Shown piece after piece: positions 2,160-22,965 of a DNA stretch of 23,607 bases. The DNA is from a virus. Where the stretch lies: the IMG/VR virus record IMGVR_UViG_3300050821_008406, positions 1 to 23,607 of that record. One strand, written 5' to 3'. A program made the translations under genes and the position numbers. The notes under the pieces were generated by a model. The model made no database searches, was not told where the DNA came from, and saw nothing but the letters and a program-made list of their open reading frames with translations. Within the stretch, counting starts at the first letter, position 1. Each line of letters starts with the position of its first letter.

Positions 2160-2204
2160 GAGCCAGAAGAAGACGTCACCTCTTTCGCGCGCGCGCGCGG
2201 CGCC

Positions 2205-2432
2205 TCACTTGTTGAGACTGGCCGTGTACGCCGGGTTGAAATACCGAATCAAAAAGTGAAAGTCGACCCACACGAGAATCGGGATCGCGACTTCCTTGGG
2301 AACGTAGTGGATGATGACCTGCGTCAGCATCGGCGTGTGCTTCCCAGTTCCCCACCCCGCCCAGAATTCGTAAAACGTGACGCCGAGAATGATCGCGACC
2401 CAGCCCCACACCCAGTACTTATTCCAGACCAT
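2205..2432 (-). CDS. Small membrane protein between tail hub and tail-tip genes
   Basis: A 75-residue protein starting MVWNKYWVWGW. The ATG at 2432 is chosen because AAAGGAGG lies about 5 bp upstream; a longer in-frame version exists but would overlap the preceding gene without its own site. Residues 5-25 (YWVWGWVAIILGVTFYEFWAG) form a likely membrane helix, and a second hydrophobic aromatic stretch (AIPILVWVDFHFLIRYF) follows near residues 49-65. I do not recognise the family. It begins 11 bp after the hub gene, and its TGA is in the same frame as the downstream tail-tip gene, with no usual start codon between them. Position suggests a role in tail assembly or in the membrane step of infection; this is inference. 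Confidence 0.7.
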   Translation of the reverse strand: MVWNKYWVWGWVAIILGVTFYEFWAGWGTGKHTPMLTQVIIHYVPKEVAIPILVWVDFHFLIRYFNPAYTASLNK

Positions 2433-2443
2433 GACGCCTCCTT

Positions 2444-3241
2444 TTATCCGACACTCGCGCTGCCATCGAACGGGTTCACGGTCGGAATCAGATCGAACCC
2501 GAGAAAACTGATCGTGCGCCCGTAGTGCGCGCACGCGGAAAACGTGAGAGCGCAGCCGGCCGTCCCGGAGACAGAGGCGCCGACGGTCAGGTCGGTGATC
2601 GGCGAGATGAGCGTCACCGTCGCGCCAGCGTGCGCCACTACCATGCGGTATTCGTCGCCGGCCTGCAGGTAGCCGGCCTGCAGCGTGTCCGGCAGCCCGG
2701 CGAACGCGGGAATCGTCAGCACCGTCCCGGTCGAATCAATCGCGGTGACCGTGCCCACGTAGGTGTGCGCCGAGAGTTCCGCGCCGCAGCCGGCGTCGCC
2801 GAAGATGTGCGAGCACGGCGCCTGGTAGAGCTGCTGCGGGATTTTCCTTTGCAATAAGTACTGTGCAGAGTTGCAAGTGAGCTCGCATTGGTCGGTGAAC
2901 CGCGCCGAAGCGATTACGCCGGTGAACAGCACCACGGTCTCCGCGTCGGCGTAGTGCGAGCCAAAGACGGTGATGGCAATCGGCGACGATGGCAGATACG
3001 GGAGGAGCAGCCTGGCCAGCGGGTGGTCCTTCGGAATAAAAACTCTGATCTGGCCGGAGACCACTTCATTCGACTGCTCGACGCCGGTGCGCGAGATCGT
3101 CGAGCTCGCGTACACCTCGCCCAAGTAGGTGATCGGATTGTCGGCGCTGGTGAGCGCGAACGAGATCCCCACACCCTGGAAGAGATAGAGCTCGTAGGGT
3201 TGCGCGGCGTACCCGGATTGCTCGAGCGCGTCGAAACTCAC
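2444..3241 (-). CDS. Distal tail hub protein, DUF2163 / BR0599-like
   Basis: 265 residues from a GTG start that overlaps the upstream stop (GTGA at 3241-3238). The N-terminal half has the pattern of the BR0599/DUF2163 family of phage and gene-transfer-agent hub proteins: 'YELYLFQGVGISFALTSAD', 'YASSTISRTGVEQSNEV', 'VFIPKDHPLARLL', 'VVLFTGVIASARF'. The middle carries a cysteine cluster typical of the family (LTCNSAQYLLQR, then APCSHIFGDAGCG), which in relatives binds an iron-sulfur cluster or metal; here it is inferred. The C-terminal part is beta-rich and ends with cysteine-containing 'CALTFSACAHYGRTISFLGFD'. It sits between the minor tail gene and the tail-tip gene, as expected for a hub protein at the bottom of the tail tube. 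The family call is fairly firm and the metal-binding claim is not tested. Confidence 0.85.
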   Translation of the reverse strand: MSFDALEQSGYAAQPYELYLFQGVGISFALTSADNPITYLGEVYASSTISRTGVEQSNEVVSGQIRVFIPKDHPLARLLLPYLPSSPIAITVFGSHYADAETVVLFTGVIASARFTDQCELTCNSAQYLLQRKIPQQLYQAPCSHIFGDAGCGAELSAHTYVGTVTAIDSTGTVLTIPAFAGLPDTLQAGYLQAGDEYRMVVAHAGATVTLISPITDLTVGASVSGTAGCALTFSACAHYGRTISFLGFDLIPTVNPFDGSASVG

Positions 3242-3738
3242 GGGACCTCCCGCGGAACTTCCACGAGCGAGAGCAGCGACTCGGCGTGGTCCGTCGAATC
3301 CCACTTGATGGACACGCGGTCGGCCTCGAGCCGCACGAGCGTGAGAAACGAAACCATCGTGGTAGCGGCCGGGAAGGCCTTCCCCGTCAGAGCTGAGAGC
3401 GTGAGGTTCTCGGTACCGTCGCCATTATCGATAGCTCCGGTGACCTTGGCGTACACATTGCCGGAGCCGTCGACGGGGATGAAAGCGATGAACCGGCGCG
3501 CCTCCGTCGGAAAGAAAAATCGCGAGTAGAATTCCGACTTGATTCGGATGCCCGAGTCGCTCGCGCCCACGTCCTGGTACAGGACCAGATCCTGGTCCCA
3601 AGTCGGAATCCAAAATGGACTGAACTGCCCGAACCGCCGGAGCATGAACGCGCGGAATGCGGTCACCACGGGATGCGTGTTCAGCCACCACGGGAACTCG
3701 GCCCACGAGCGCGGTGCCGCCTTTGTCCACGACTTCAA
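3238..3738 (-). CDS. Minor tail protein, C-terminal part (reading frame shifted from the upstream part)
   Basis: An open frame of up to 166 codons whose first possible start is a TTG at 3738 without a Shine-Dalgarno site. From about 'APRSWAEFPWWL' onward it reads like the C-terminal domain of a known siphovirus minor tail family: 'VVTAFRAFMLRRFGQFSPFWIPTWDQDLVL' followed by a beta-rich end. The missing N-terminal part is in the preceding frame (4945 downward), which is coding-like until about 'VEVVDKGGT'-type residues near 3725-3715. The two pieces join if the reading frame moves by +1 near 3722-3700. The real product is therefore probably one protein of roughly 565 residues, and this entry is its C-terminal third. 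It ends with a TGA overlapping the GTG start of the hub gene. A stand-alone protein from the TTG start is possible but less likely. Confidence 0.7.
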   Translation of the reverse strand: MKSWTKAAPRSWAEFPWWLNTHPVVTAFRAFMLRRFGQFSPFWIPTWDQDLVLYQDVGASDSGIRIKSEFYSRFFFPTEARRFIAFIPVDGSGNVYAKVTGAIDNGDGTENLTLSALTGKAFPAATTMVSFLTLVRLEADRVSIKWDSTDHAESLLSLVEVPREVP

Positions 3739-4945
3739 TCGGCCCGACTTTCGGATCGATGGTCACCATCGACCGCTTGTAGCTTCGCTTCAGCGGCGCC
3801 TGGCGCCAGTTCGGCGGGATCTCCAGGACGTCGAATCCCATGAACTGCGTCGGCGCCGCGGTGGGAGCCGGCGCCGGCTGCGAGGCCTCGCCGATGAAAT
3901 TCAGGTCCACCTGGTCGATTTCGCTGCTGTGCCTCGCGACGTCGACCGCGGCCGGCAGCCGGCACAGAAAAACGGGAATGACTAGCGACTGCGGACCGCC
4001 AGGCCAGGCGTTCACCGTCGGTGAAGAGACCGTCACGGAACCGGGATTCACGGTGACAATCGAGAGCGCCTCAAATGTGTACTCATCCGCCCATATCGCC
4101 ACGAGGCCGCCCGGAGCGAACTGCCGGTCGGTGGTCACCACGGGAATCACGAACGTGCCGGCCGCGATGGAGGAGAGCAGCGGCTGCGCGTCCGGCCACC
4201 ACGGGACGCCGAACGGTTGGTTTTGCCAGCCCCAAATGAGCGACTCCATGCCGGCGGCGTCGCGCGCGTTGAGCGTGAGCGCGCGAAACCGCATCGCACG
4301 CCGCGGGAGCTGGCGCAGCGCGCGCCGCTGCTCGGCGTCGGAATAGGAGCGGAGCACGTCCGTGAAGTACTCGAGCGTCTCTTCCATTCCTTCGCCCCAC
4401 TCCGGCGCGACGGAAAACAGCGTGATGCGCGAACCGGTGACCTCGAGGTCCGTGCCGGCGACGCCGGTGAAAGCGAAGACCACATCCTGAAGTACTTGTG
4501 CGGGCCCCGCGCCTGGGAGCGTCACCTGGTAGGTGTAGGAATCGAGCGCCGCGAAACTCAGCGGCTCGCCGTGAACGTCGGTGAGCGTGAGACCGCCGGC
4601 GCCCGTGATGGTGATCGATACGAGCGTCTCGATGGACTCGCGAAAAGCGTTCCACACCTCGACGGGAAACTGCGTCGAGGTCAAAACGAACCCGAGCGCC
4701 TTCAGCCGCGGAACGACAATCACTCGGCCGAAGAGTTGCCCGCCGAACGTTTCCATGCGCTGGCCGGCGAGATTCCTGTGAGAGATGGCCACGGCCGGTT
4801 CACCGCGCGCGGGCCCGATGAGAACAGGAGCGCCGAAACCGATAGACCGCGTGCTCGAGAACACCCCCGCGGTAATATCCGACGAGCGATTTGTCGGATC
4901 GAGCCGCACCGCGAAAGAGTTCAGCACACCTGCAAAGTTCGCCAT
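3425..4945 (-). CDS. Minor tail protein, N-terminal part, with a frame break near 3720
   Basis: The ATG at 4945 follows a purine-rich AGGGGA site. Residues 1 to about 405 are coding-like: 'RSIGFGAPVLIGPARGEPA', then a segment typical of phage tail proteins, 'YFTDVLRSYSDAEQRRALR', 'LPRRAMRFRALTLNARDAA' and 'LIWGWQNQPFGVPWWPDAQ', and a beta-rich region to 'RSMVTIDPKVGPIEV'. The last roughly 100 residues of the open frame are rich in Arg, His and Pro and look like out-of-frame translation of the overlapping downstream frame, which carries the family's expected C-terminal domain. I therefore read 4945-3238 as one gene whose frame shifts +1 near 3722-3700. The cause may be an assembly indel, a true mutation or, less likely, recoding. 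It lies between the paired structural genes and the hub gene, fitting a baseplate or distal tail role. Confidence 0.75.
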   Translation of the reverse strand: MANFAGVLNSFAVRLDPTNRSSDITAGVFSSTRSIGFGAPVLIGPARGEPAVAISHRNLAGQRMETFGGQLFGRVIVVPRLKALGFVLTSTQFPVEVWNAFRESIETLVSITITGAGGLTLTDVHGEPLSFAALDSYTYQVTLPGAGPAQVLQDVVFAFTGVAGTDLEVTGSRITLFSVAPEWGEGMEETLEYFTDVLRSYSDAEQRRALRQLPRRAMRFRALTLNARDAAGMESLIWGWQNQPFGVPWWPDAQPLLSSIAAGTFVIPVVTTDRQFAPGGLVAIWADEYTFEALSIVTVNPGSVTVSSPTVNAWPGGPQSLVIPVFLCRLPAAVDVARHSSEIDQVDLNFIGEASQPAPAPTAAPTQFMGFDVLEIPPNWRQAPLKRSYKRSMVTIDPKVGPIEVVDKGGTALVGRVPVVAEHASRGDRIPRVHAPAVRAVQSILDSDLGPGSGPVPGRGRERLGHPNQVGILLAIFLSDGGAPVHRFHPRRRLRQCVRQGHRSYR

Positions 4946-5960: not shown

Positions 5961-7133
5961 TTAGGCCAGCCGCACCGCAAAAAAATCCGCCTTCGTGTTG
6001 CGGAACACGTTTTGCACCACGAGATACGGAATTCCGGCGACGGTGATCGTGTTCTCGGACCCCTGCGAGAACCCGCTGGTCGCGTGGACCCCGTCGAGCT
6101 CGCCGAAAATATCCGGCGTCGAATCGAACAGCACCACGGGGAGCAGTGGATAACTACCGTCGAGATTCGGCCGCCAGTCGTAGAGCGTCGGACTGACGTA
6201 CGCGAACGGCCACACCTGCCCTGACGTGTGGTCCCCGGAGTAGATGTCGAACCCGCGCCAGGCACCCGACGGGAGCCGGAGCTCGAGCGAGCTCGCGTAG
6301 TCGTTCGGCACGCCGGTCGCGAACGGAATCGGAAAGTTCCGCATCTCGGCGCCCGTGTAACTCCAGCGCCAGGATGGATCGGTCGCGCCCGGTTCGACGT
6401 TGAACGCGAGGTTCCCCCCGACCACGAGCGGGTACGGGAAAGAACCCGGAGCCATGTAGCTCGCCAGGAATCCCAGATACGCCGTGACGTACACGGTGGA
6501 GACCTTGGCGATGACCATCACGCGCCGGCCGCTGGCGATAAACCAGTAGGGAGTCGTGGAGTTCCACAGCGTGAGAACCGGAGACGGATGAGCCTGGCCC
6601 GAGCCGCCGATGTAGCCTGGCTGCGCGTTGAACGCCGCGCCGGAGTTGTACGCGCTGAACCCGCCGAGCCGCCAATTGTAGTAGTCGGTGGGGACGTTCG
6701 AGAAAGTTTTGGCGCCGACGATGATCTGGTCGAGGCCTCCGTTTCCCGGAGCTTGCCAGATCATCTCGGACCCGGCCACGCGCCGGAGTGAAGTCCACGG
6801 CGGGCACACCGCGAACGTGAACGCGTCGCCAGAGATGAACGCCGTCCCGCCGGCCGTGACGGTCAGGTTCGCTTTTGTCGAGGCGAACGCCGTGCCTGCC
6901 GTGCCGGACCCGAGCGAGCCGGAGACGGAGCCCACCACGCCGAAGTGCGTCGCGTCGGTGAACGTGACGGTGATCGTTTCGGCGACGCTGGCGGATCCGC
7001 CGAGCGCCACGATGGTCCCGTTCCCCGTACCGACGAAGGACGGCTTGAGCGCCATGCCGGTCGCCGTTAGAAACGTGTCGAGCTGATTCAAGAGGTCGGC
7101 GTAGTCGGTCGCGGTTCCAATTTGCACGGACAT
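5961..7133 (-). CDS. Phage virion/tail-associated structural protein with beta-rich insert
   Basis: 390 residues; the ATG at 7133 lies one base after the tape measure stop, and its AGGAGC site is inside the end of that gene, so translation is coupled. It begins 'MSVQIGTATDYADLLNQLDTFL'. About residues 37-112 form a beta-rich module ('GNGTIVALGGSASVAETI', then 'FGVVGSVSGSLGSG', then 'LTVTAGGTAFISGDAFTF') that recurs in the large tail-tip protein. The rest (for example 'DYYNWRLGGFSAYNSG', 'PSWRWSYTGAEMRNFPIPF') resembles the 332-residue neighbour in layout. The module appears to be an insertion relative to that neighbour. It is probably a distal tail structural protein; no enzymatic motif was seen. 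Confidence 0.75.
   Translation of the reverse strand: MSVQIGTATDYADLLNQLDTFLTATGMALKPSFVGTGNGTIVALGGSASVAETITVTFTDATHFGVVGSVSGSLGSGTAGTAFASTKANLTVTAGGTAFISGDAFTFAVCPPWTSLRRVAGSEMIWQAPGNGGLDQIIVGAKTFSNVPTDYYNWRLGGFSAYNSGAAFNAQPGYIGGSGQAHPSPVLTLWNSTTPYWFIASGRRVMVIAKVSTVYVTAYLGFLASYMAPGSFPYPLVVGGNLAFNVEPGATDPSWRWSYTGAEMRNFPIPFATGVPNDYASSLELRLPSGAWRGFDIYSGDHTSGQVWPFAYVSPTLYDWRPNLDGSYPLLPVVLFDSTPDIFGELDGVHATSGFSQGSENTITVAGIPYLVVQNVFRNTKADFFAVRLA
6914..6939. repeat. 26-nt stretch identical to 1445-1470
   Basis: Second copy of the repeat shared with the tail-tip gene; it encodes the same 'VVGSVSGS' strand within the inserted beta module at about residues 37-112 of the 390-residue structural protein. 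Confidence 0.8.
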
Positions 7134-14771: not shown

Positions 14772-16333
14772 TTTTTTCCCCTCAGTGGAATGAGACGGCG
14801 AGACCCAGCCGCCGCAGATTTTTTCCCGTCCTCTTTGTCATCGGCGGCGTCGTCGGCCGCCTCGTCCGGGTTGTCCGGGTTGTCTTCCTCCACCACGGCA
14901 TCCTTCGGACCCTTGTCGACGATGGGAGCCTTCGCGGTGATCGTGAGATGGAGGTCGTAGGTGTCCGCGAGCTTTTCCTCTTCCGCGAGCTGCTCGAAGA
15001 CTTCCTCGAAGTCGCCGCCCTGCTCGGAGATCGCCGCGTCCCGCGTCTGCAGGCCGGCGCCGATTCCAAGAATTGTGGACTGCACGTCCTTAAGCGGATC
15101 GACCCATGCCCAGCCCCGCGGCTGCCACTTGCCGGCACAGAACCGTGCCGGATCGCGCGAGTCGAGCACGAGCACACCCGAGAGCAGCGCCATCGAGATC
15201 CACGGATTGAAGATTGGCTGCAGCATCTGCTCCTTCAAAAACGATTGGAGCATTTTCCACTGGTCGCGCTCGATGAGCAGGCCGGAGCGCATGGAGGAGT
15301 AGTTCACTCCCTCGAGGTCGGACGCCAGCGCGTTGTAGGAGACACCCATCGACGATGCGACGAACCGCAGCATGGCCTTCAGGAACGCCGGGAACGCGGA
15401 GGCGGGATGCTCGGGACTCCACGCCTGGAAGTCGAGGCCAGGCGGCAAAGTTTCAATCACGCCAGGTTGCGCCTCGATGCGGTACTTCGCGTCGGCGTTC
15501 GGCGGGTCGTAGGCGCCGACGTCGGTGTGCTTCAAGAACCCCATCTTCGCGGCGCCCGTGCGCGCAGCGACAAGTTCAGCCTCGACGTAGCCGCCGAGCA
15601 TCCGCATCTCGACCATGCACGGGTGAAACCATGTGATCCCGCGCGTTTGATTCACGCGCTCGGGATCGTAGAGATGCAAAATCTGGTCCGCGGGGATTCG
15701 CGTCCGCACGAGCGAGCCGCCGAGATCGGACGGGTGCTTTTCGTTTACGTGGTACGCGACCGGACGTCCCCACGTGTCGACCTCGACACCCATGCGGATT
15801 TCATTCTCGGCTCGCGACGCGGCGCGAGTGAAGAGATGGTCCACCTGGTCGGCGTCGATGAGCTGCAGCGCGAACCGGTACTTGTTCGGGAAGCCCATAA
15901 CCTTCCGAACGAAGACCTCGCCGTCGGTCGCGATGTTTTTCAGCACGAGCGTCTGCACACCGCGGAAAGAGAGTTTGCCGTCGACCGTGCAGTTCCCCGC
16001 CTGGCCCCACTCGAGCCACGCGTCCTGAATCTTTTCGTTGAATGCGGTGTTCAGGGTTTTGTCATTGTTCCGCACCTGGGGTTGGTAGCCGATTCCTTTT
16101 TCCCCGAGCACGTTCGACGTGAGGATTTTCAGGTAGGACTTCGCGACGGGATTGTTGCGCGAGAGCTCACGCGCGCGCGCGCGGAGCAGCCGCATGTTTC
16201 CTTTGATTTCCTGGTCCGCGGAAAGGATCGCCGCGACCCAGTCCATCGTGAGCCGGCCGCCCATCGCGCCGTTGTAGACCGTGGTCGCGCGCTTCCCGGT
16301 TAGCAGGTTGCCGAGCTTGCGGAGCCAGTTCAT
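14768..16333 (-). CDS. Portal protein, lambda gpB family
   Basis: 521 residues, starting 'MNWLRKLGNLLTGKR' at the ATG at 16333, which overlaps the preceding stop (ATGA). Lambda-family portal motifs are clear: 'RLLRARARELSRNNPVAKSY' then 'LKILTSNVLGEKGIGYQPQV', 'DGKLSFRGVQTLVLKNIATD' followed by 'GEVFVRKV', 'IPADQILHLYDPERVNQTRG' then 'ITWFHP', and 'MGVSYNALASDLEGVNYSS' then 'MRSGLLIERDQW'. The protein forms the dodecameric ring at one head vertex, through which terminase pumps DNA and to which the joining proteins bind. The last about 70 residues are acidic, then Lys-rich, and look disordered. Length matches lambda gpB (533). It lies directly between connector and protease-capsid genes. Confidence 0.95.
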   Translation of the reverse strand: MNWLRKLGNLLTGKRATTVYNGAMGGRLTMDWVAAILSADQEIKGNMRLLRARARELSRNNPVAKSYLKILTSNVLGEKGIGYQPQVRNNDKTLNTAFNEKIQDAWLEWGQAGNCTVDGKLSFRGVQTLVLKNIATDGEVFVRKVMGFPNKYRFALQLIDADQVDHLFTRAASRAENEIRMGVEVDTWGRPVAYHVNEKHPSDLGGSLVRTRIPADQILHLYDPERVNQTRGITWFHPCMVEMRMLGGYVEAELVAARTGAAKMGFLKHTDVGAYDPPNADAKYRIEAQPGVIETLPPGLDFQAWSPEHPASAFPAFLKAMLRFVASSMGVSYNALASDLEGVNYSSMRSGLLIERDQWKMLQSFLKEQMLQPIFNPWISMALLSGVLVLDSRDPARFCAGKWQPRGWAWVDPLKDVQSTILGIGAGLQTRDAAISEQGGDFEEVFEQLAEEEKLADTYDLHLTITAKAPIVDKGPKDAVVEEDNPDNPDEAADDAADDKEDGKKSAAAGSRRLIPLRGKK

Positions 16334-16962
16334 CGCTCGAGGCCCGTCACGTCCTGCCAGGTCGGCGGGTAATCAGGACTCTCTTCCTCGAGCGGGAATG
16401 TCACGCGGTAGGGGACGCCGAGCTGGCCAGGATGCTGCTGGCGCCAGATTGCAGCGCGGAGCAGGCCGCGGGTCTCGCGGAGTTCGGTAACCGTCATTTT
16501 GCTGACGGAGCGGCCGGCGATTTGGTACGCCTGAATCCCGGACGTGAGCCGGCCAGAGAGCGCGGCCTCGACTACCACGAGAGCTTGCTCCTCCCACGTA
16601 TTGAACGCGCCCGCGGCCGCACTGGCCACGTTCGGCTCGATCACAATCACGAGCTCATCGCCCGTGATGTCGTAGGTTTCGCCGGCGAGCGTCGAGTCGA
16701 CGGAGCCGTCGTTCACGAGCCGCTCGGCATAGCGATAGGGGCCCGGAACTAGAGCCGCGGTGTCGGCGGGAACGAACTCGATCTGAAAAACATTTGTGGC
16801 CAGGATCGTGGCGGCCTTGCTGAACTTTTGGGTGAGACCGTTCAGGTAGATCGTGTAGGACCAGCCATCGGACGGGAGGAAGTCGTCGAGGGTTCGCGTG
16901 AACTTGACAGTCGTCCCCGCGGGAAAGTGATCCGGCACGAGATCGGGGATGATTGGAGGCAC
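16330..16962 (-). CDS. Head-tail connector-like protein with an N-terminal beta domain
   Basis: 210 residues from a GTG at 16962, with no good Shine-Dalgarno site; an internal GTG at about residue 9 is an alternative. Residues 12-115 look like a beta sandwich ('FPAGTTVKFTRTLDDFLPSD' then 'GWSYTIYLNG'; 'YRYAERLVNDGSVDSTLAGE'). Residues about 125-180 are helical, 'NTWEEQALVVVEAALSGRLT' then 'YQIAGRSVSKMTVTELRETR' and 'GLLRAAIW', resembling the helix-hairpin-helix of gpW-like joining proteins, which typically carry 'I.GR....T..EL' patterns. Its position just before the portal gene equals lambda W. So it may be a gpW-like adaptor carrying an extra domain. That function is inferred. Confidence 0.75.
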   Translation of the reverse strand: MPPIIPDLVPDHFPAGTTVKFTRTLDDFLPSDGWSYTIYLNGLTQKFSKAATILATNVFQIEFVPADTAALVPGPYRYAERLVNDGSVDSTLAGETYDITGDELVIVIEPNVASAAAGAFNTWEEQALVVVEAALSGRLTSGIQAYQIAGRSVSKMTVTELRETRGLLRAAIWRQQHPGQLGVPYRVTFPLEEESPDYPPTWQDVTGLER

Positions 16963-16994
16963 TGAGGGAAAAGCTACGCTGTTTGCCGCGCGGA

Positions 16995-17023
16995 CATATA
17001 CCAGAGACTTACTCAGTTGTTAG
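16995..17023 (-). promoter_or_regulatory. Candidate promoter before the connector and portal genes
   Basis: Coding-strand CTAACA (17023-17018) and TATATG (17000-16995) are separated by 17 bp, and TGG directly precedes the -10 box (extended -10). It is in the only sizeable gap between the small-gene cassette and the head operon, 33 bp before the GTG at 16962. Four of six -35 bases match the sigma-70 consensus. Seen by eye only. Confidence 0.4.
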
Positions 17024-17038
17024 TTCAGGCAATGGGAA

Positions 17039-17065
17039 CTGCTCCCGAGTAGCGCTCGGGAGCAG
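17039..17065. repeat. Perfect 11-bp inverted repeat (hairpin) in the gap before the connector gene
   Basis: CTGCTCCCGAG and CTCGGGAGCAG flank a 5-nt loop (17050-17054). It lies in the 178-bp non-coding gap 16963-17140. No T run follows on either strand, so a normal intrinsic terminator is doubtful. A protein-binding site or RNA processing hairpin is equally possible. It ends where the next palindrome begins. Confidence 0.65.
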
Positions 17066-17074
17066 CAATTGCTG
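17063..17074. repeat. 12-bp perfect palindrome next to the hairpin
   Basis: CAGCAATTGCTG reads the same on both strands and overlaps the last three bases of the 11-bp inverted repeat. Such a symmetric site suits a dimeric DNA-binding protein. With the hairpin it sits upstream of the candidate promoter at 17023-16995, as an operator or activator site might. Function is inferred. Confidence 0.5.
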
Positions 17075-17140
17075 GGAAAAACAGAAGAGGGGGGCACAGC
17101 GAGGGGATTCGGGTGTCGCGGTTTCTATTTTACGCGTTCT

Positions 17141-17533
17141 TCACCTTGGCGTCTGCATCGACTTCAGAACACCGTTCTGCAGGTAGAGGTACTGCTTCCC
17201 GTATACCCACTGCTCCCGCTGACGTTCGGAGGAGAGCGTGGCGTTGATTTTTTCCGGTTTCCCCCACGAGAGCCGCACCTGGTCGGCGGTCATTCCAATC
17301 GAGACCTCTCCCTGGTCGATGGACTGGCAGACTTCCATCTCCCACTCGGGATGCGCGGAGCAGGCCGCGCGCACTTTGGGATGTTTCAGGAGCTCGAGCG
17401 AGCGCGGCCGCGTTTCCGCCGCGGCCTGAACCGTCTGCGCCTGGACTTGCATCCGCGCCTTCGTGCTCTTGTGCATGACAGAGACGGCGAGGATCGCCAG
17501 CAATAGAACGAACCCGACAATTACCTTTTTCAT
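17141..17533 (-). CDS. Membrane-anchored BamE/SmpA-like small protein
   Basis: 130 residues; the ATG at 17533 overlaps the preceding stop and follows ACGGAGGGAAG. Residues 1-20 (MKKVIVGFVLLLAILAVSVM) are a signal anchor with no lipobox cysteine. Residues 78-128 have the pattern of BamE/SmpA-like domains: 'SIGMTADQVRLSWGKPEKIN' then 'REQWVYG' and 'YLYLQNGVLKSMQ'. Two cysteines (58, 69) before the domain could form a disulfide outside the cytoplasm. BamE-like domains usually belong to host envelope proteins and bind partners there. In a phage this could alter the infected cell's envelope, as morons do, or be host-derived cargo. The domain resemblance is by motif only. It is the last gene of the small-gene cassette. 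Confidence 0.75.
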   Translation of the reverse strand: MKKVIVGFVLLLAILAVSVMHKSTKARMQVQAQTVQAAAETRPRSLELLKHPKVRAACSAHPEWEMEVCQSIDQGEVSIGMTADQVRLSWGKPEKINATLSSERQREQWVYGKQYLYLQNGVLKSMQTPR

Positions 17534-17751
17534 GACTTCCCTCCGTTGACTGAGTTTAACTCAGTCTCCGACATCTTGATCGTGACGCGAACTTCCGTGA
17601 TGCGCTTTCCAGCAATGCCCGGACGCGTGCGGAGAGCTTTAAGACCGCGGCCGGCGGCCACGTCAAAACTTCCGGCGTGGACCGTGACGGTTTGCCAGGC
17701 CAGGTGCGCCTTCACTTCGGGAAAGAACCCGGTGACGCTGAAGGATTTCAT
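17530..17751 (-). CDS. Small basic protein, function unknown
   Basis: 73 residues starting 'MKSFSVTGFFPEVKAHLAWQ'. The ATG at 17751 has GAGG about 10 bp upstream. The pattern is strand, strand, helix ('AAGRGLKALRTRPGI'), strand ('KRITEVRVTIKMSE'), a compact alpha-beta fold that is common in small phage proteins with 'MK.F.V.G' starts. Its TGA overlaps the ATG of the BamE-like gene. I do not recognise a function. Confidence 0.6.
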   Translation of the reverse strand: MKSFSVTGFFPEVKAHLAWQTVTVHAGSFDVAAGRGLKALRTRPGIAGKRITEVRVTIKMSETELNSVNGGKS

Positions 17752-17764
17752 CGGGGCAGCCTCT

Positions 17765-17950
17765 TCACGACTTCACCCCGAAGAGTTTCCGCGAGTCCTC
17801 GAGCCGCGCCAGGACCCGGCCGACGGTGAGACCTTTCTCGAACAACGCGAGACAGGACCCGGTGACCGGGTCGCGGAACAGAACCAGAGAGCCGTCCTCC
17901 GACGGTTGGACGCCAACAAAGAGAGCGCCGGCGAGAGCGACGGCGGTCAT
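17765..17950 (-). CDS. Small protein of unknown function
   Basis: 61 residues, ATG at 17950 overlapping the upstream stop (ATGA). It starts 'MTAVALAGALFVGVQPSEDG', then 'SLVLFRDPVTGSCLALFEKG' and a helix 'TVGRVLARLEDSRKLFG'. The alternating strands and final helix suggest a small folded domain. The first 15 residues are mildly hydrophobic but too short and uncharged for a clear signal peptide. No family is recognised. The coupled overlap supports it being a real gene. Confidence 0.6.
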   Translation of the reverse strand: MTAVALAGALFVGVQPSEDGSLVLFRDPVTGSCLALFEKGLTVGRVLARLEDSRKLFGVKS

Positions 17951-18141
17951 GACTTGCCTGCCTTGTACTCGTTCGCGACCGGCGCGACGCGCTTCAATTC
18001 CGCGGCGACCAGGCGCGCCAGGACTTCCTTCATCGTCGACCGCGTGAGAGCAGCGATGACTTTCAGTTGGTCGCGGACTTCCTGCGTAGTGAGTACTAAC
18101 GCCGACGATGAGACCTTGTCCTTTGGTGGGATACGAATCAC
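17947..18141 (-). CDS. Ribbon-helix-helix-like small protein, possible DNA-binding regulator
   Basis: 64 residues from a GTG at 18141 that overlaps the preceding stop (GTGA) and has GGAGG about 5 bp upstream. A longer upstream frame exists but has no such site. The sequence has a strand ('SSALVLT'), helix ('TQEVRDQLKVIAALTR'), turn ('ST') and second helix ('MKEVLARLVAAELKRV'), the layout of MetJ/Arc ribbon-helix-helix repressors, which bind DNA as dimers through paired strands. If real, it could regulate the cassette or head promoters nearby, where inverted repeats occur. The fold is inferred from pattern only. Confidence 0.65.
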   Translation of the reverse strand: MIRIPPKDKVSSSALVLTTQEVRDQLKVIAALTRSTMKEVLARLVAAELKRVAPVANEYKAGKS

Positions 18142-18284
18142 GAGTTCCTCCAGAGATACCCGGAGAGCTTCCGCCAGGCCGAGCGTTCGAACAGGATGGT
18201 GACCGGAGCCACGGGATACGGAACGTCGTGCTTCAAGAGTTCCGCGATGGAGCGGATCGGCTGCAAGCGGCGCCAGGAGTTCAT
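18138..18284 (-). CDS. 48-residue protein of unknown function
   Basis: A short gene starting ATG at 18284 inside TGATGA, so it overlaps the upstream stop, and ending in a TGA that overlaps the next gene's GTG. It encodes 'MNSWRRLQPIRSIAELLKHD' then 'VPYPVAPVTILFERSAWRKL' and 'SGYLWRNS'. It is basic and Trp-rich with no recognised domain. The upstream GAGGTGC serves as a ribosome site. The double overlap on both sides, and the next gene's ribosome site lying inside its last codons, support it as a real gene. Confidence 0.6.
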   Translation of the reverse strand: MNSWRRLQPIRSIAELLKHDVPYPVAPVTILFERSAWRKLSGYLWRNS

Positions 18285-18595
18285 CAGAGCACCTCTCCCA
18301 TTTCTTCGAGCGCCATGCGGCGCACGATTTCTTCCGCCTCTTCGATTGTGGCGACCACGGCCTCCTCGTCGCCGAACTGCGGGACCGCCACACGGCCGTC
18401 GGCCAGGACCACGGCGTACAGGAAATTAGGAACGGACCCCGTGCCTTCACACGGCGAAGTCCAGACATAGCCGGGATTTTCGTCGAGGTCGTAACCCTGG
18501 TAACCGAACGCCGCGAACGCGGCGCCGAGGTCGGCGTGGTAAACGCAAGTCCAGCGAGTAGCGGAGGAGCCGGTCCAGCGCGTCGGGGATTTCAC
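18284..18595 (-). CDS. Acidic small protein of unknown function
   Basis: 103 residues from a GTG at 18595 that overlaps the preceding TGA. It begins 'KSPTRWTGSSATRWTCVYHA' and contains 'LGAAFAAFGYQGYDLDENPG', 'PNFLYAVVLADGRVAVPQFG' and a final acidic helix 'ATIEEAEEIVRRMALEEMGE'. The middle looks like a small alpha-beta domain. I do not recognise the family. A much longer frame upstream overlaps the terminase and lacks a plausible start. Context in a chain of overlapping small genes is the main support. Confidence 0.6.
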   Translation of the reverse strand: MKSPTRWTGSSATRWTCVYHADLGAAFAAFGYQGYDLDENPGYVWTSPCEGTGSVPNFLYAVVLADGRVAVPQFGDEEAVVATIEEAEEIVRRMALEEMGEVL

Positions 18596-18825
18596 GATTG
18601 CACCGCGAAGTACAGGTCGCCGGCCTTGCGGAGCTTCCCGGTTTCGACCAGGACGCCCATGATGATCTGGTAGTTCTCGAGCGAGACGCCGTGGCCCATC
18701 AGCGCGGCGTACAAGAGGCCGCTCGGAGCGCCGGCCGCGCCGGCGACCGCCACAGACTCGACGATTGCGTTTGCCACGGCCAGTAGAGCCGCTGCGGGGT
18801 TTGCCGTTCCTGGTTTCGTTTTCAC
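18592..18825 (-). CDS. Small winged-helix-like protein, function unknown
   Basis: 77 residues. GTG at 18825 is chosen over GTG at 18876 because ACGGAGGC lies about 8 bp upstream of the former and the latter has no site. After an Ala-rich helix ('PAAALLAVANAIVESVAVAG') comes 'APSGLLYAALMGHGVSLENY', 'QIIMGVLVETGKLRKAGDLY' and 'FAVQS', a helix-helix-wing pattern common in small phage proteins. DNA or protein binding cannot be told apart. It is the first gene of the small-gene cassette after the terminase and follows the AT-rich promoter-like patch. Confidence 0.65.
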   Translation of the reverse strand: MKTKPGTANPAAALLAVANAIVESVAVAGAAGAPSGLLYAALMGHGVSLENYQIIMGVLVETGKLRKAGDLYFAVQS

Positions 18826-18896
18826 TTTTGAAGCCTCCGTGTTTTGGTTCCTTGCCACACACAGAGTTTCGCTCACTTCGGAGGAGAAGTACAGTT

Positions 18897-18928
18897 ATTA
18901 TACGTATCATAGTGGTAATACGTTCCAA
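18897..18928 (-). promoter_or_regulatory. Candidate promoter and operator in an AT-rich patch after the large terminase
   Basis: On the coding strand a perfect TATAAT (18902-18897) lies downstream of TTGGAA (18928-18923), but the spacing is 20 bp, longer than ideal; TATGAT at 18911-18906 is an alternative. An inverted repeat ACGTAT/ATACGT (18902-18907 and 18918-18923) with a 10-nt spacer overlaps the -10 region, as a repressor site would. The base composition drops sharply from GC-rich to AT-rich here. It could drive the small-gene cassette. Confidence 0.45.
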
Positions 18929-18932
18929 TCGA

Positions 18933-20867
18933 TTAACGCCATCCCTGGACCCAAGAAGACCCCCCGCCGGCACGGCCAGGCCCCTCGGATGGCCCGCCAG
19001 AGCCGCCCTGTGGCCCGCCGCTAGGCTCGGTCGGGGGGAGCCGGAGCGCGGCCGCCAGTTCCCCGAGCTTGCGGATCGTGGCCTGGCCGAGGACATAGAG
19101 AGCAGCAAGCGCGTAGACCTCGAGGTCGAGCGCCTCGTTACGCGCGCGCGTTTTGATGTACTCCCGCGTGGTGCCCTTGCCGCGGCGATAGCGACGAACC
19201 GCCTTCTCGGAAGTGAGCTGCGCCAGGTACTCGTCCTCGACGAAGTCCGGCAGGTGCATGAAGCCAGGACCGGGTCCTGGGATTTTCATTCGAGCGAAGA
19301 TGCGGTCCTTCGCCGTGTCGGTTCCGATGAGCCAGAGCTTCACGCGGTATTGATTGTTGATCGAGAACTTCCCGAGAATTTCCTTCCCCGATTCGCTCGA
19401 GCCTTTGAGCGCGAAGATTCGCCGCGCCTGCCGAGCGCGGACAAACCGATAGACGGAGTCGGTGTGCAGGCCGCCGGAGTCGATCATGGTGCAGGCGATT
19501 CGAACTTTCTGACCGGAGCTGTGCTCCCACGTCGAGAGCAGGAACGAATCGAGTTCGTTCCACACGGCCTCCTGGCCGGGATCTCCAAAGAGTTGCTGAT
19601 AGGCGATGAGCCAGGATTCCTCTTTGTCGCCCCACCCCTTCACCACACACTCGAGGCGGTCGGCCTGGACGTCGACGGCCGCGGTGAGCAGCCCCACGCC
19701 GTCGGGGACTTCCGCCTGATACGGCTCGACCCGGCTCTTCAGCGTGAGCGCCTCGACGGAGTCACCCTGCTCCTCCCATGTTTCGCCGAGCCGGAGATTG
19801 ATGAAGGCCTTCAGTTTCTCCGGGTTGTTTTCCTTGTTGGCGTCATGCCACTCCTGCGCGAGCGCGTTCCAGTTTTCCCGCCACGGCGAATACAGCGCGT
19901 TGATGTGGAAGCCCACGGTCGCACGGTCCGGGAACTCGGCGAGCCACTCGCCAGCGTTGAGCATTTGCTGTTTGTAGCGTTCCGGGATGTGCTTCTGACA
20001 GCCGGAGCAGATGTAGGCGACGGACTTCGGGTCGACCTGGCCGTCGGCGTCGACGGAATAGAAGAGGCGGTACATCCCGGAGCCGGCCGGCGGAGTCGGG
20101 TCACGCCAGCGCAGCGGCTGCCGGACGGAACAGAACGGACACGGGACGTGGAAGCGCCGCATGTCGGACCGGAGGAAGTCCCGCTCGATGGGTGAGATCC
20201 CTTTAGGTTTCGCCGGCGTGGAGCCCTTCACGATTTTATAATCCGCGTAACCGTCCGTGCGCCGCGTGCCGATGGCGACCGGGTCACCCTCGCCGTCGAC
20301 ATCGATGGGGTAACCGTCGACCTCATCGAACAGCACCACGGGGACGGGATCGGAGCGGAGACCGGCGCCGGAATTCGCTCCGGTCAGTTTCAGGAACCCG
20401 CCAGGGAATTCCTTCAGCGCGAGCGTGTTCCCCGCGCGCCGAGAGGTCGGCGGTTTGATTTTCAGGCGGAGCGCCGGACAGGATTCGATCATTGGCGTGA
20501 TCCGCTTCTTCCCGTAGTCCTTGGCGTTCTCGATGGTCGGCTGCACGAGCATGATCGGCTTCGGGTCCGCGTCGACGTAGTACCCGCAGATGTTATTGAT
20601 CACCGCGTCGGAGTAGCCCACCTGCGTGCTTTTCTGAATCACCACTTCATGCACGAGCGGGTCGAGGACCACGTCCATCATTTCGATTTGGAATTTCTCC
20701 GGCTTGAACGGACCCGGCCGGGACGTCGTGCCTTTCGGCAGCACACGGTTCCTGACGGCCCACTCGGACACGCTGATATCGGGAGGAGGATCGTAGTGGT
20801 TGTAAACGCGCGCCAGGACCGCGGCGAAGTTAACTAGTGCGCTCGGGTGGGTTTGTGTTTCCGCCAT
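18933..20867 (-). CDS. terL: Terminase large subunit, lambda GpA family
   Basis: 644 residues; the ATG at 20867 lies inside the end of the small subunit gene (38-bp overlap). The ATPase domain shows the variant Walker A 'IQKSTQVGYSDA' (residues 77-88) and Walker B 'VVLFDEVDGYP' (Asp181, Glu182). A zinc-ribbon-like pair 'CPFC' and 'CSGC' follows at residues 243-246 and 287-290. The nuclease half has 'TAAVDVQADRLE' (Asp399) and 'ACTMIDSGG' (Asp463), acidic residues expected in the RNase H-like active site. The enzyme cuts concatemeric DNA and drives it into the prohead through the portal. GpA relatives often use cos sites. The end is Gly/Pro-rich and differs from family members, and is probably flexible. 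Confidence 0.96.
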   Translation of the reverse strand: MAETQTHPSALVNFAAVLARVYNHYDPPPDISVSEWAVRNRVLPKGTTSRPGPFKPEKFQIEMMDVVLDPLVHEVVIQKSTQVGYSDAVINNICGYYVDADPKPIMLVQPTIENAKDYGKKRITPMIESCPALRLKIKPPTSRRAGNTLALKEFPGGFLKLTGANSGAGLRSDPVPVVLFDEVDGYPIDVDGEGDPVAIGTRRTDGYADYKIVKGSTPAKPKGISPIERDFLRSDMRRFHVPCPFCSVRQPLRWRDPTPPAGSGMYRLFYSVDADGQVDPKSVAYICSGCQKHIPERYKQQMLNAGEWLAEFPDRATVGFHINALYSPWRENWNALAQEWHDANKENNPEKLKAFINLRLGETWEEQGDSVEALTLKSRVEPYQAEVPDGVGLLTAAVDVQADRLECVVKGWGDKEESWLIAYQQLFGDPGQEAVWNELDSFLLSTWEHSSGQKVRIACTMIDSGGLHTDSVYRFVRARQARRIFALKGSSESGKEILGKFSINNQYRVKLWLIGTDTAKDRIFARMKIPGPGPGFMHLPDFVEDEYLAQLTSEKAVRRYRRGKGTTREYIKTRARNEALDLEVYALAALYVLGQATIRKLGELAAALRLPPTEPSGGPQGGSGGPSEGPGRAGGGSSWVQGWR

Positions 20868-21337: not shown

Positions 21338-21658
21338 CTAGCCTTTGACCGGGTCCTGGGTGCCTCGAGCCGCCGCGGCGACGCAGGCGAACGGCGAGTC
21401 GACCTGGAGCTCCCCGTTCTTAATCCAGGAGTGGTAGTGATCGATGGCCCGGAAACTCGGCGTGAGCGAAAGAGTTTCGAGCGTCTCGCCGGTTCGGTTC
21501 CACATGTCGCCCTGTGTCTTCGCCGGCGCTCCTCCACCGATGGGGTTTCTGAAAAACGCCATGCGCTGGCTGCCGCAGTTTGGACAGCGGATCGCGAGCC
21601 CGACTTTCCGCCCGTCGAACTTCCAAAACTCCGCGAAGTCTTTCAGCGGGTAGTTCAT
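21338..21658 (-). CDS. Small CxxC protein (DUF6527-like)
   Basis: 106 residues from the ATG at 21658, which overlaps the methyltransferase stop (ATGA) and follows GAGGGAGGG. 'AIRCPNCGSQRMAFF' is a one-knuckle metal-binding motif. 'WNRTGETLETLSLTPSF' and 'HYHSWIKNGELQ' resemble a family of small phage and bacterial proteins annotated as DUF6527, in which a Trp, 'TLSPS' and 'HSFI..G.' motif follow the cysteines. The function of that family is not known. Zinc binding is likely but would need further ligands, perhaps the His residues near position 77-79. Its position between methyltransferase and terminase suggests no specific role. Confidence 0.7.
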   Translation of the reverse strand: MNYPLKDFAEFWKFDGRKVGLAIRCPNCGSQRMAFFRNPIGGGAPAKTQGDMWNRTGETLETLSLTPSFRAIDHYHSWIKNGELQVDSPFACVAAAARGTQDPVKG

Positions 21659-22965
21659 ACGCGTCCCTCCCTCTTTGCTTTCTTCCCCGTGACCTCTTCC
21701 CACCTGAGAGCGATGACGTCACAGAACTTCGGCTCGAGCTCGCACAGGTACGCGGTGCGGCCGAACTTTTCGCAGGAGATGAGCGTCGAGCCGGAGCCGG
21801 CGAACGGATCGAAGACCACGTCTTTTTTCTTCGTGGAATTGCGTAGCATCTTGTCGATGAGCGCGACCGGCTTCATCGTGGGATGCTCGTCGCTTTTTTT
21901 CGGCTTCGGGATTTTCACCACGCTGGTCTGCAGTTCCTCGATAACCAGTTTCTCCCCGCGGATCTGATACCACTGGTCGCCGAGCCGGAGCCGGTAGAGA
22001 TTCGGTTCGACCTGGGTGAGCGGCGCCTCGAGCATGAACTCGGAGACCGTCGTGGACTTCCGGTCGCCGTACCATTTGTGCGGCCCGCTCGGTTTCCAGC
22101 CGTAGAGGATCGGCTCGTGCTGCCACTGGTAGTCGCTTCGGCCGAGCACGAGCGAGTCCTTGCACCAAATCAGACAGCCGGAGAGTTTGAACCCGGCGTC
22201 GATGAACGCGCCGCGAAAGTTAAGGCCTTCGGTGTCAGCGTGGCAAACGTAGACCGCGGCGCCGTCCTTCAGGACGCGGAACATGACGGAGTACGCGCGG
22301 AGCAGGAACTTTCTGAAGTCGCCGTTCTCCATGTTGTCGTTTTTGATTTTCCCGGCGCCGCCCTCGTAGTTCACGTTGTACGGCGGATCGGTGAAGACCG
22401 CGTCGGCCTTCGCGCCGGCGAAAAGTTTCTCGATGACGAACGGGTCGGTCGAGTCCCCGCAGATGAGCCGGTGCTTCCCGAGCTGGATGAGCTCGCCAGG
22501 AAACGTGACCGGCTTCGCCGGCACGGCCGGCACGGCGTCCTCTTCGGCGCCAGGCAAGAGACCGCCCTGGTCGATGTTCAGGAGCGCGTTGATTTCGTCG
22601 GCGTCGAATCCGGTCGCCTCGAGATTGAACCCGAGCTTTGAGAGATCGCCGAGCTCGAGCGCCAGGAGCTCCTCGTCCCACTCCGCCTCTTCGTGAACGC
22701 GGTTGTCGGCGAGCCGGTAGGCCTTCACCTGCGCCGGCGTGAGATCGCGCGCCACGAGGACGGGGACTTCCTTCATGCCGAGCCGGAGAGCAGCGAGCAG
22801 TCTGGTGTGGCCGACGATGATGACGGAGTCCTTGTCCACCACGATGGGCTGCTTAAAACCGAACTCCTTGATGGACAGCGCCACTTTCTCGACGGCGTCC
22901 TCGTTACGCCGCGGATTTTTTTTGTACGGGAGTACGCGGTCGACCGCCCACATCTCGATTTTCAT
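21655..22965 (-). CDS. ParB-domain and DNA adenine/cytosine-N4 methyltransferase fusion
   Basis: 436 residues. The ATG at 22965 is preceded by GGGAGGAAC; a longer frame upstream overlaps the neighbour and lacks domain support. Residues 1-130 are a ParB/Srx-like N-terminal domain ('VDRVLPYKKNPRRNEDAVEK', 'IVGHTRLLAALRLGMKEVPV'). The methyltransferase follows: catalytic 'DPPY' at 193-196 (motif IV), then the target-recognition part, then the S-adenosylmethionine-binding 'FDPFAGSGST' at 385-394 (motif I). This order is that of beta-group N6-adenine or N4-cytosine enzymes. Residues about 313-352 form an extra beta-rich segment before 'HPTMKP'. ParB-methylase fusions are known in phages; they may modify phage DNA to resist restriction or mark it. 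The target base and site cannot be read here. No restriction partner is nearby, fitting an orphan enzyme. Confidence 0.92.
   Translation of the reverse strand: MKIEMWAVDRVLPYKKNPRRNEDAVEKVALSIKEFGFKQPIVVDKDSVIIVGHTRLLAALRLGMKEVPVLVARDLTPAQVKAYRLADNRVHEEAEWDEELLALELGDLSKLGFNLEATGFDADEINALLNIDQGGLLPGAEEDAVPAVPAKPVTFPGELIQLGKHRLICGDSTDPFVIEKLFAGAKADAVFTDPPYNVNYEGGAGKIKNDNMENGDFRKFLLRAYSVMFRVLKDGAAVYVCHADTEGLNFRGAFIDAGFKLSGCLIWCKDSLVLGRSDYQWQHEPILYGWKPSGPHKWYGDRKSTTVSEFMLEAPLTQVEPNLYRLRLGDQWYQIRGEKLVIEELQTSVVKIPKPKKSDEHPTMKPVALIDKMLRNSTKKKDVVFDPFAGSGSTLISCEKFGRTAYLCELEPKFCDVIALRWEEVTGKKAKREGRV

Follow-up and report, generated by a model that had tools for sequence, protein, structure and literature searches.

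What does a phage genome hold between the gene for its large terminase and that for its connector when the two are separated by more than a kilobase of small reading frames, and are these frames part of the packaging and head machinery or cargo that is carried along with it? The question is posed by the window analyzed here, a 23,607-nt (23.6-kb) fragment of an uncultured temperate phage (IMG/VR record IMGVR_UViG_3300050821_008406). The interval 17141–18825 on the minus strand of the window is filled by seven ORFs, designated A to G (Table 1). To its left lies the gene for a gpA-type large terminase (TerL), and to its right the gene for a head-tail joining protein (connector), after which comes the portal gene.

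The interval encodes a genuine array of seven genes

A sequence-only reading had described this interval as a cassette of seven small genes of 48–130 residues with near-continuous stop-start overlaps. All seven ORFs are present at that place on the minus strand and five of the six junctions overlap, by 4 nt at A/B, C/D, D/E and F/G and by 1 nt at B/C, with a 13-nt gap at E/F. Gene calls were made with a codon-usage caller written for the analysis, which returned exactly ORFs A to G. The codon-usage chain score was 191, covering 86% of the interval, whereas 100 dinucleotide shuffles averaged 6 and did not exceed 30, and the opposite strand scored 7. Genes C to G were also compared with those of a relative, L005, which revealed purifying selection on genes D, E, F and G (dN/dS 0.13–0.42), and the test for gene C was not significant (p = 0.09). 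As the chain score is far above the values for the shuffled sequences and genes D to G are under purifying selection, the array is real and did not arise by chance.

Table 1. Features of the terminase-connector slot in the window and loci of the leader RNA in relatives.
Feature	Position	Strand	Evidence
TerL, gpA-type large terminase; left slot boundary	18933..20867	-	Pfam GpA_nuclease 5e-95, GpA_ATPase 5e-64
AT-rich leader, TerL to gene A	18826..18932	-	Alignment A10
Gene A, 77 aa	18592..18825	-	ORF; phrog_15190 E = 0.0099
Gene B, 103 aa, family f10	18284..18595	-	ORF, family clustering
Gene C, 48 aa, family f5	18138..18284	-	Comparison with NlpC/P60-like genes of relatives
Gene D, 64 aa, family f6, RHH-like	17947..18141	-	Antitox_RHH E = 0.13; dN/dS 0.26 (vs. 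L005)
Gene E, 61 aa, family f3	17765..17950	-	Alignment A4; dN/dS 0.42 (vs. L005)
Gene F, 73 aa, family f1	17530..17751	-	Alignment A2; model pLDDT 84
Gene G, 130 aa, family f7	17141..17533	-	Model pLDDT 87; E. coli BamE Z 7.3
Non-coding right boundary, gene G to connector	16963..17140	-	Alignment A11 (9 loci)
Hairpin, 11-bp stem, 5-nt loop	17039..17065	-	0/100 shuffles as good
Head-tail joining protein (connector), right neighbor	16330..16962	-	phrog_5774 E = 1.2e-17
Leader RNA of relatives	L010, L011, L021, L025, L030, L053, L057, L101, L140, L143, L145		TerL-to-first-gene gap (L143: after lysis genes)

Relatives of the phage and their host

A scan of IMG/VR with the TerL protein yielded 52 viral loci with 63–95% identity, and a genome scan located a prophage with a 92% identical TerL in a MAG of Terriglobia (Acidobacteriota). 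The slot of this prophage contains E-like, small-membrane and F-like genes. No TerL with at least 60% identity was found in the phage records of the collection, and the relatives compared here are metagenomic contigs that were retrieved by pattern. A near-complete relative of 41.6 kb, G001, possesses a TerL that is 95% identical to that of the window. Gene content indicates that the phage family is temperate, because G001 encodes a serine recombinase and, as judged by eye, a repressor-like gene, and because the Terriglobia genome harbors a prophage. One prophage end (G008:C49, ~74.9–75.5 kb; L076) abuts a sequence that by eye resembles the C-terminal portion of a gene of ComM/YifB type, suggesting integration within that gene. 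A separate ORF of 436 aa is located upstream of the terminase genes in the window (21655–22965, minus strand); its N-terminus appears ParB/methyltransferase-like by eye and the ORF is conserved in G001 and in the Terriglobia prophage.

Slot content turns over between conserved neighbors

In 34 intact loci, the window included, the TerL-to-connector interval extends from 60 to 4637 bp with a median of 1562 bp. Five of these intervals are 419 bp or shorter, and in some relatives the slot is nearly absent (60–339 bp). The slot ORFs, including those of some contigs that are cut before the connector, comprise 35 families and 46 singletons. Thus, the content of the slot turns over strongly while TerL, the connector and the portal stay conserved. 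The sequence-only reading had looked to related phages for variable gene content and had regarded the constant presence of the same seven genes as the sign of a structural module: content varied as described, and the set of seven was not found in any other sampled locus. The L005 locus, whose TerL is 95% identical, has genes C to G in common with the window and a different gene where the window has A and B. TerL and portal are only 164–1040 nt apart at 19 gpA-type loci that are more distantly related, compared to ~2.6 kb in the window, and the insertion is therefore a feature of this phage group.

The lysis genes of G001 form a separate set, with a GH19-type endolysin (3e-7) and small membrane proteins at positions 2046–3973, away from the slot. 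The possibility that the slot is the lysis module of the family consequently was discarded. Since slot content and length vary, the set of seven recurs in none of the sampled relatives and the G001 lysis genes are located elsewhere, the slot very probably consists of exchangeable cargo and is not structural. The proposal that such an insertion carries morons or anti-defence genes accordingly holds as far as a variable insertion that is not a fixed structural module is concerned, but its anti-defence part found no backing in PADLOC, with which six window proteins and four proteins of relatives gave nothing below E = 0.012, a search that covers characterized systems.

Shared genes keep a strict order and the last gene is often exported

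The pairwise order of recurrent families was counted over the slots and eight further loci and agreed with the majority in 159 of 161 cases (permutations: mean 115, maximum 131), a test that overstates independence as the loci are related. The usual order is f5 (gene C), f6 (D), f3 (E), f2, f1 (F), followed by an exported protein of family f4, f11, f13 or f7 (G). Family f2, a small membrane protein with a single segment and a basic tail, is absent from the window. Random cargo would not require an order this strict, which counts against the cargo explanation.

An export-like hydrophobic start was detected in 19 of the 28 last slot genes versus 19 of the 80 other slot genes (Fisher p = 6e-5), and the exported last genes belong to unrelated families. 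Two types of f4 are chromosomal in Terriglobia (88/101 and 16/151 sampled genomes), which suggests capture from hosts. Similar genes also were found downstream of lysis genes rather than between TerL and connector: L120 (3612–4587) contains NlpC/P60-like f5, f3 and RHH genes, with an RHH_5-like gene (2e-4) at the end of the cassette, and L143 (2974–4085) carries the leader RNA described below with two F-like genes. Thus, the slot unit is not tied to packaging.

Conserved flanks and a structured leader RNA in relatives

The leader that separates TerL from gene A has a GC content of 0.43 and, when the window is aligned with L005, L116, L016, L017, L020 and L006 (alignment A10), displays the conserved blocks TTGGAAC, TATAATAACTGTACTT and GAGCGAA. 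A possible CTCTGTGT/ACACGGAG stem, read by eye after these blocks, would enclose the Shine-Dalgarno sequence GGAGG of gene A, which starts with GTG. At the opposite end, the region before the connector is kept whichever slot gene lies ahead of it and includes the conserved block TGAGTAAGTCTCT (alignment A11). The hairpin that the earlier reading had noted at this end of the cassette is indeed present; its core, GCTCCC/GGGAGC, is conserved, and a T run occurs in some relatives and not in the window, making the element attenuator- or terminator-like. The promoter-like patches of the same reading proved weaker than claimed, as a consensus scan of the window found no sigma-70 promoter and only a conserved AT-rich block is evident. 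No canonical intrinsic terminator was detected in the window, in which terminator-like sites occur at chance level. The conserved flanks nevertheless look like exchange boundaries, perhaps comprising a promoter and an attenuator, and a promoter or terminator belonging to the cassette itself is hinted at by this conservation.

The window-type leader is replaced in 11 relatives by a structured leader RNA of 70 nt whose stem covaries. Double changes were found in 8 of 11 pairs, and the covariation value was 0.473 against 0.170 in shuffles (0/500). Seven of the 11 sequences served to build the model and match it by construction. The tail of the RNA is conserved (CTAAC..ACAAAGYGAGG), and the element is positioned upstream of slot-type genes; at most of the loci it precedes a conserved N-terminus, M.A...LPE, on otherwise different proteins. 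Rfam yielded no match at gathering score in 11 loci and chance-level matches only in the window slot, and the leader RNA model did not match the window.

Genes A to F

Searches of Pfam, PHROGs, NCBIfam and PADLOC provided no confident family name for any of genes A to G and no match to a known defence, anti-defence or exclusion family among the slot proteins. The winged helix that had been attributed to gene A was not confirmed and is a likeness by eye only. Relatives of this gene occur in unrelated phages, and in three probably related contigs they are situated beside a gene for an ArdC N-terminal domain; genes A and F had no match in phage records. The gene B family, f10, was found in four slots.

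Gene C consists of only the cytoplasmic head and the last codons of what is a membrane-anchored NlpC/P60-like hydrolase in some relatives, the catalytic domain being absent. The f5 proteins of L017, L020 and L022 resemble NlpC/P60 (E = 9e-5 to 7e-3), with a Pfam match at E = 1e-4 that falls just under the cut-off, and similar sequences are carried by L016 and L120. Comparison of L003 (3234–3353) with L022 (7207–7761) revealed a clean in-frame deletion of 435 bp in the membrane-anchored NlpC/P60-like gene that leaves an ORF of 39 aa and preserves the overlap with gene D. Gene C of the window is probably a degenerate remnant of a peptidoglycan hydrolase similar to that in L003, and probably persists because the ribosome-binding site of gene D lies within its 3′ end. 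A clean deletion in the window itself was considered and dropped: it is clean only between L003 and L022, and the tail that the window has in common may be the ribosome-binding site of gene D.

The sequence-only reading had included a ribbon-helix-helix-like protein, and gene D does resemble Antitox_RHH, but weakly, at 12.9 bits against a cut-off of 27.2. The gene E family was counted in 16 slots and that of gene F, the commonest slot gene, in 23. The model of the F protein has a beta-beta-alpha-beta fold. Assignment of F as eL20-like or Gp2-like was rejected, as the best Foldseek E value was 0.2 and the VIA Z scores of 6.4 and 5.2, respectively, are at the level of a common arrangement; a sequence search of the PDB found nothing for F. 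Homologues of F were present in two of 299 Terriglobia genomes, namely in the prophage and in G090. The G090 homologue (L125, L126) is placed between TrbI/VirB10-like and VirB11-like (T2SSE) genes of a type IV secretion operon, and one f4 slot-gene type weakly resembles TrbI.

Gene G

The AlphaFold model of the G protein comprises a long N-terminal helix and a C-terminal domain (residues 75–130). The domain superimposes on E. coli BamE with an rmsd of 1.6 and 26% identity over 51 residues, and many BamE chains are among the best VIA matches with Z values up to 7.3, where values under 8 may mean a common arrangement only. BLIP, OsmE and a T6SS immunity protein also match, and BLIP-type domains score alike. 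The helix-loop-helix and sheet of the domain are shared with BamE (SmpA/OmlA) and BLIP/OsmE-type domains. In contrast to BamE, the membrane helix of G is apparently uncleaved and a lipoprotein signal is missing, as the N-terminal hydrophobic segment has no cysteine close to its end that could form a lipobox. As the lipobox is absent and no Pfam family, BamE included, matches G at E < 1, G was not filed as a BamE lipoprotein; of the membrane-anchored BamE-like protein suggested previously, the fold was confirmed. The model is consistent with a predicted inner-membrane-anchored protein that would expose a BamE/BLIP-type domain to the periplasm, and G may work like the binding domains of this type.

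The only match to G in phage records covers 55 residues, in Moraxella phages. A gene with a G-like domain is located beside recombinase and repressor-like genes in L112, and another in L114 is separated by 1.9 kb from a gene for a TIR protein of the Thoeris ThsB type (3998–4243 and 6094–6483). The L114 phage has a MuB-like ATPase, as judged by eye.

Possible roles of the cassette

Taken as a whole, the slot is best explained as an exchangeable moron-type cassette that acts on the host and is translated as a coupled operon, an explanation for which confidence is evenly balanced. The cassette would reside between the genes for terminase and connector in a family of temperate tailed phages that infect Terriglobia and be swapped by recombination in the conserved flanks, with TerL and the leader on the left and the hairpin region and connector on the right. 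Genes A to G would be translated as a tightly coupled operon whose products most likely act on the host cell, altering its envelope or defences, rather than in the virion. The G protein, anchored in the inner membrane, would present its BamE/BLIP-type domain to the periplasm and would obstruct entry or envelope steps on which competing phages depend, D and perhaps A would be regulators, and B, E and F would act as cytoplasmic helpers or inhibitors. This target and phenotype, with G acting at the envelope to bring about lysogenic conversion or the exclusion of superinfecting phages, is a tentative proposal that presupposes expression in the lysogen. The same-strand place among the head genes would equally allow expression in the lytic phase.

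Lytic-phase expression would suit a cassette for host takeover or anti-defence, in which small proteins produced late, together with those of the head, would act as inhibitors of host functions or defences, like many other tiny proteins of phages. The position of the slot on the same strand as, and between, late genes and its tight coupling agree with this role, as does the proximity of gene A relatives to ArdC N-terminal-domain genes. T7 Gp2 is an inhibitor of host RNA polymerase, and the three strands and one helix of F are arranged as in Gp2 (rmsd 2.7 over 51). However, the F-Gp2 match is below the level at which it would mean more than a common arrangement and has no counterpart in sequence, PADLOC matches are lacking, and the exported last genes fit the envelope better, so that host takeover appears somewhat unlikely. 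Toxin-antitoxin or regulatory action centered on D and its neighbors might be suggested by the antitoxin-like character of D and by the second RHH-like gene in L120, but no toxin family was matched, D is missing from most slots and its neighbors change between relatives, which makes this role very improbable.

Both the location between TerL and connector and the strict order of shared genes would be expected of virion or assembly auxiliaries, such as dispensable helpers of head decoration, packaging or head completion that differ from one relative to the next. Against such auxiliaries stand the near-absence of the slot in some relatives, the unrelated content in others, the export signals and NlpC/P60-like domains of slot genes and the occurrence of the unit away from packaging genes in L120 and L143; the idea is improbable. 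Exported, small membrane and NlpC/P60-type genes also might constitute a displaced lysis or entry module acting as a second lysis cassette, with the f5 hydrolases and with f2 resembling some holins in its single membrane segment and basic tail. This is highly improbable given that G001 possesses a separate lysis set and that the window and most slots lack the hydrolase domain.

Discussion

The locus had been put forward as the best candidate in the window for an undescribed system. The slot is rather a further case of a recognized type of locus, the phage morons, with a few unusual features, and variable slots of 1–5 kb between two conserved phage genes have already been described (PMC9122126). 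Like prophage morons (PMC7067206), it would be variable temperate-phage cargo that is dispensable by comparison and encodes exported proteins, but it is located on the late-gene strand and is a multi-gene array in conserved order instead of one gene. The antiviral hotspots of P2/P4-type phages (PMC9122126), of which that in P2 lies between a replication gene and the portal gene, likewise measure ~1–5 kb, are flanked by two conserved genes and show high turnover, whereas the slot here has terminase and connector flanks and tiny genes without known defence domains. The Ltp-type superinfection-exclusion lipoproteins, encoded in the lysogeny module of Streptococcus phages, are by description small, exported, prophage-encoded envelope proteins as proposed for G, which differs in lacking a lipobox and in its predicted helix anchor (PMC3952083). 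The Tunturi viruses, which are tailed phages and also have hosts among the Acidobacteriota, are by description likewise predicted to carry moron genes (PMC11924767).

A wider reading regards the slot as a portable array of ordered genes, equipped with a regulatory leader and exchange boundaries of its own, by which phages across the Acidobacteriota swap envelope-directed exclusion factors, and the leader RNA of relatives as a new class of cis-regulatory RNA controlling phage cargo; this reading is put forward as unlikely. Acidobacteriota rank with the most common bacteria of soil, and only a small number of their phages have been cultured. The slot is fixed and easily located and would allow dozens of small proteins, many without a match in any library, to be collected and screened for exclusion and anti-defence activity. 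How phages exchange cargo while leaving the packaging genes unbroken may also be studied here, with the array in its fixed order, the portable unit and the leader RNA seen in relatives as a case.
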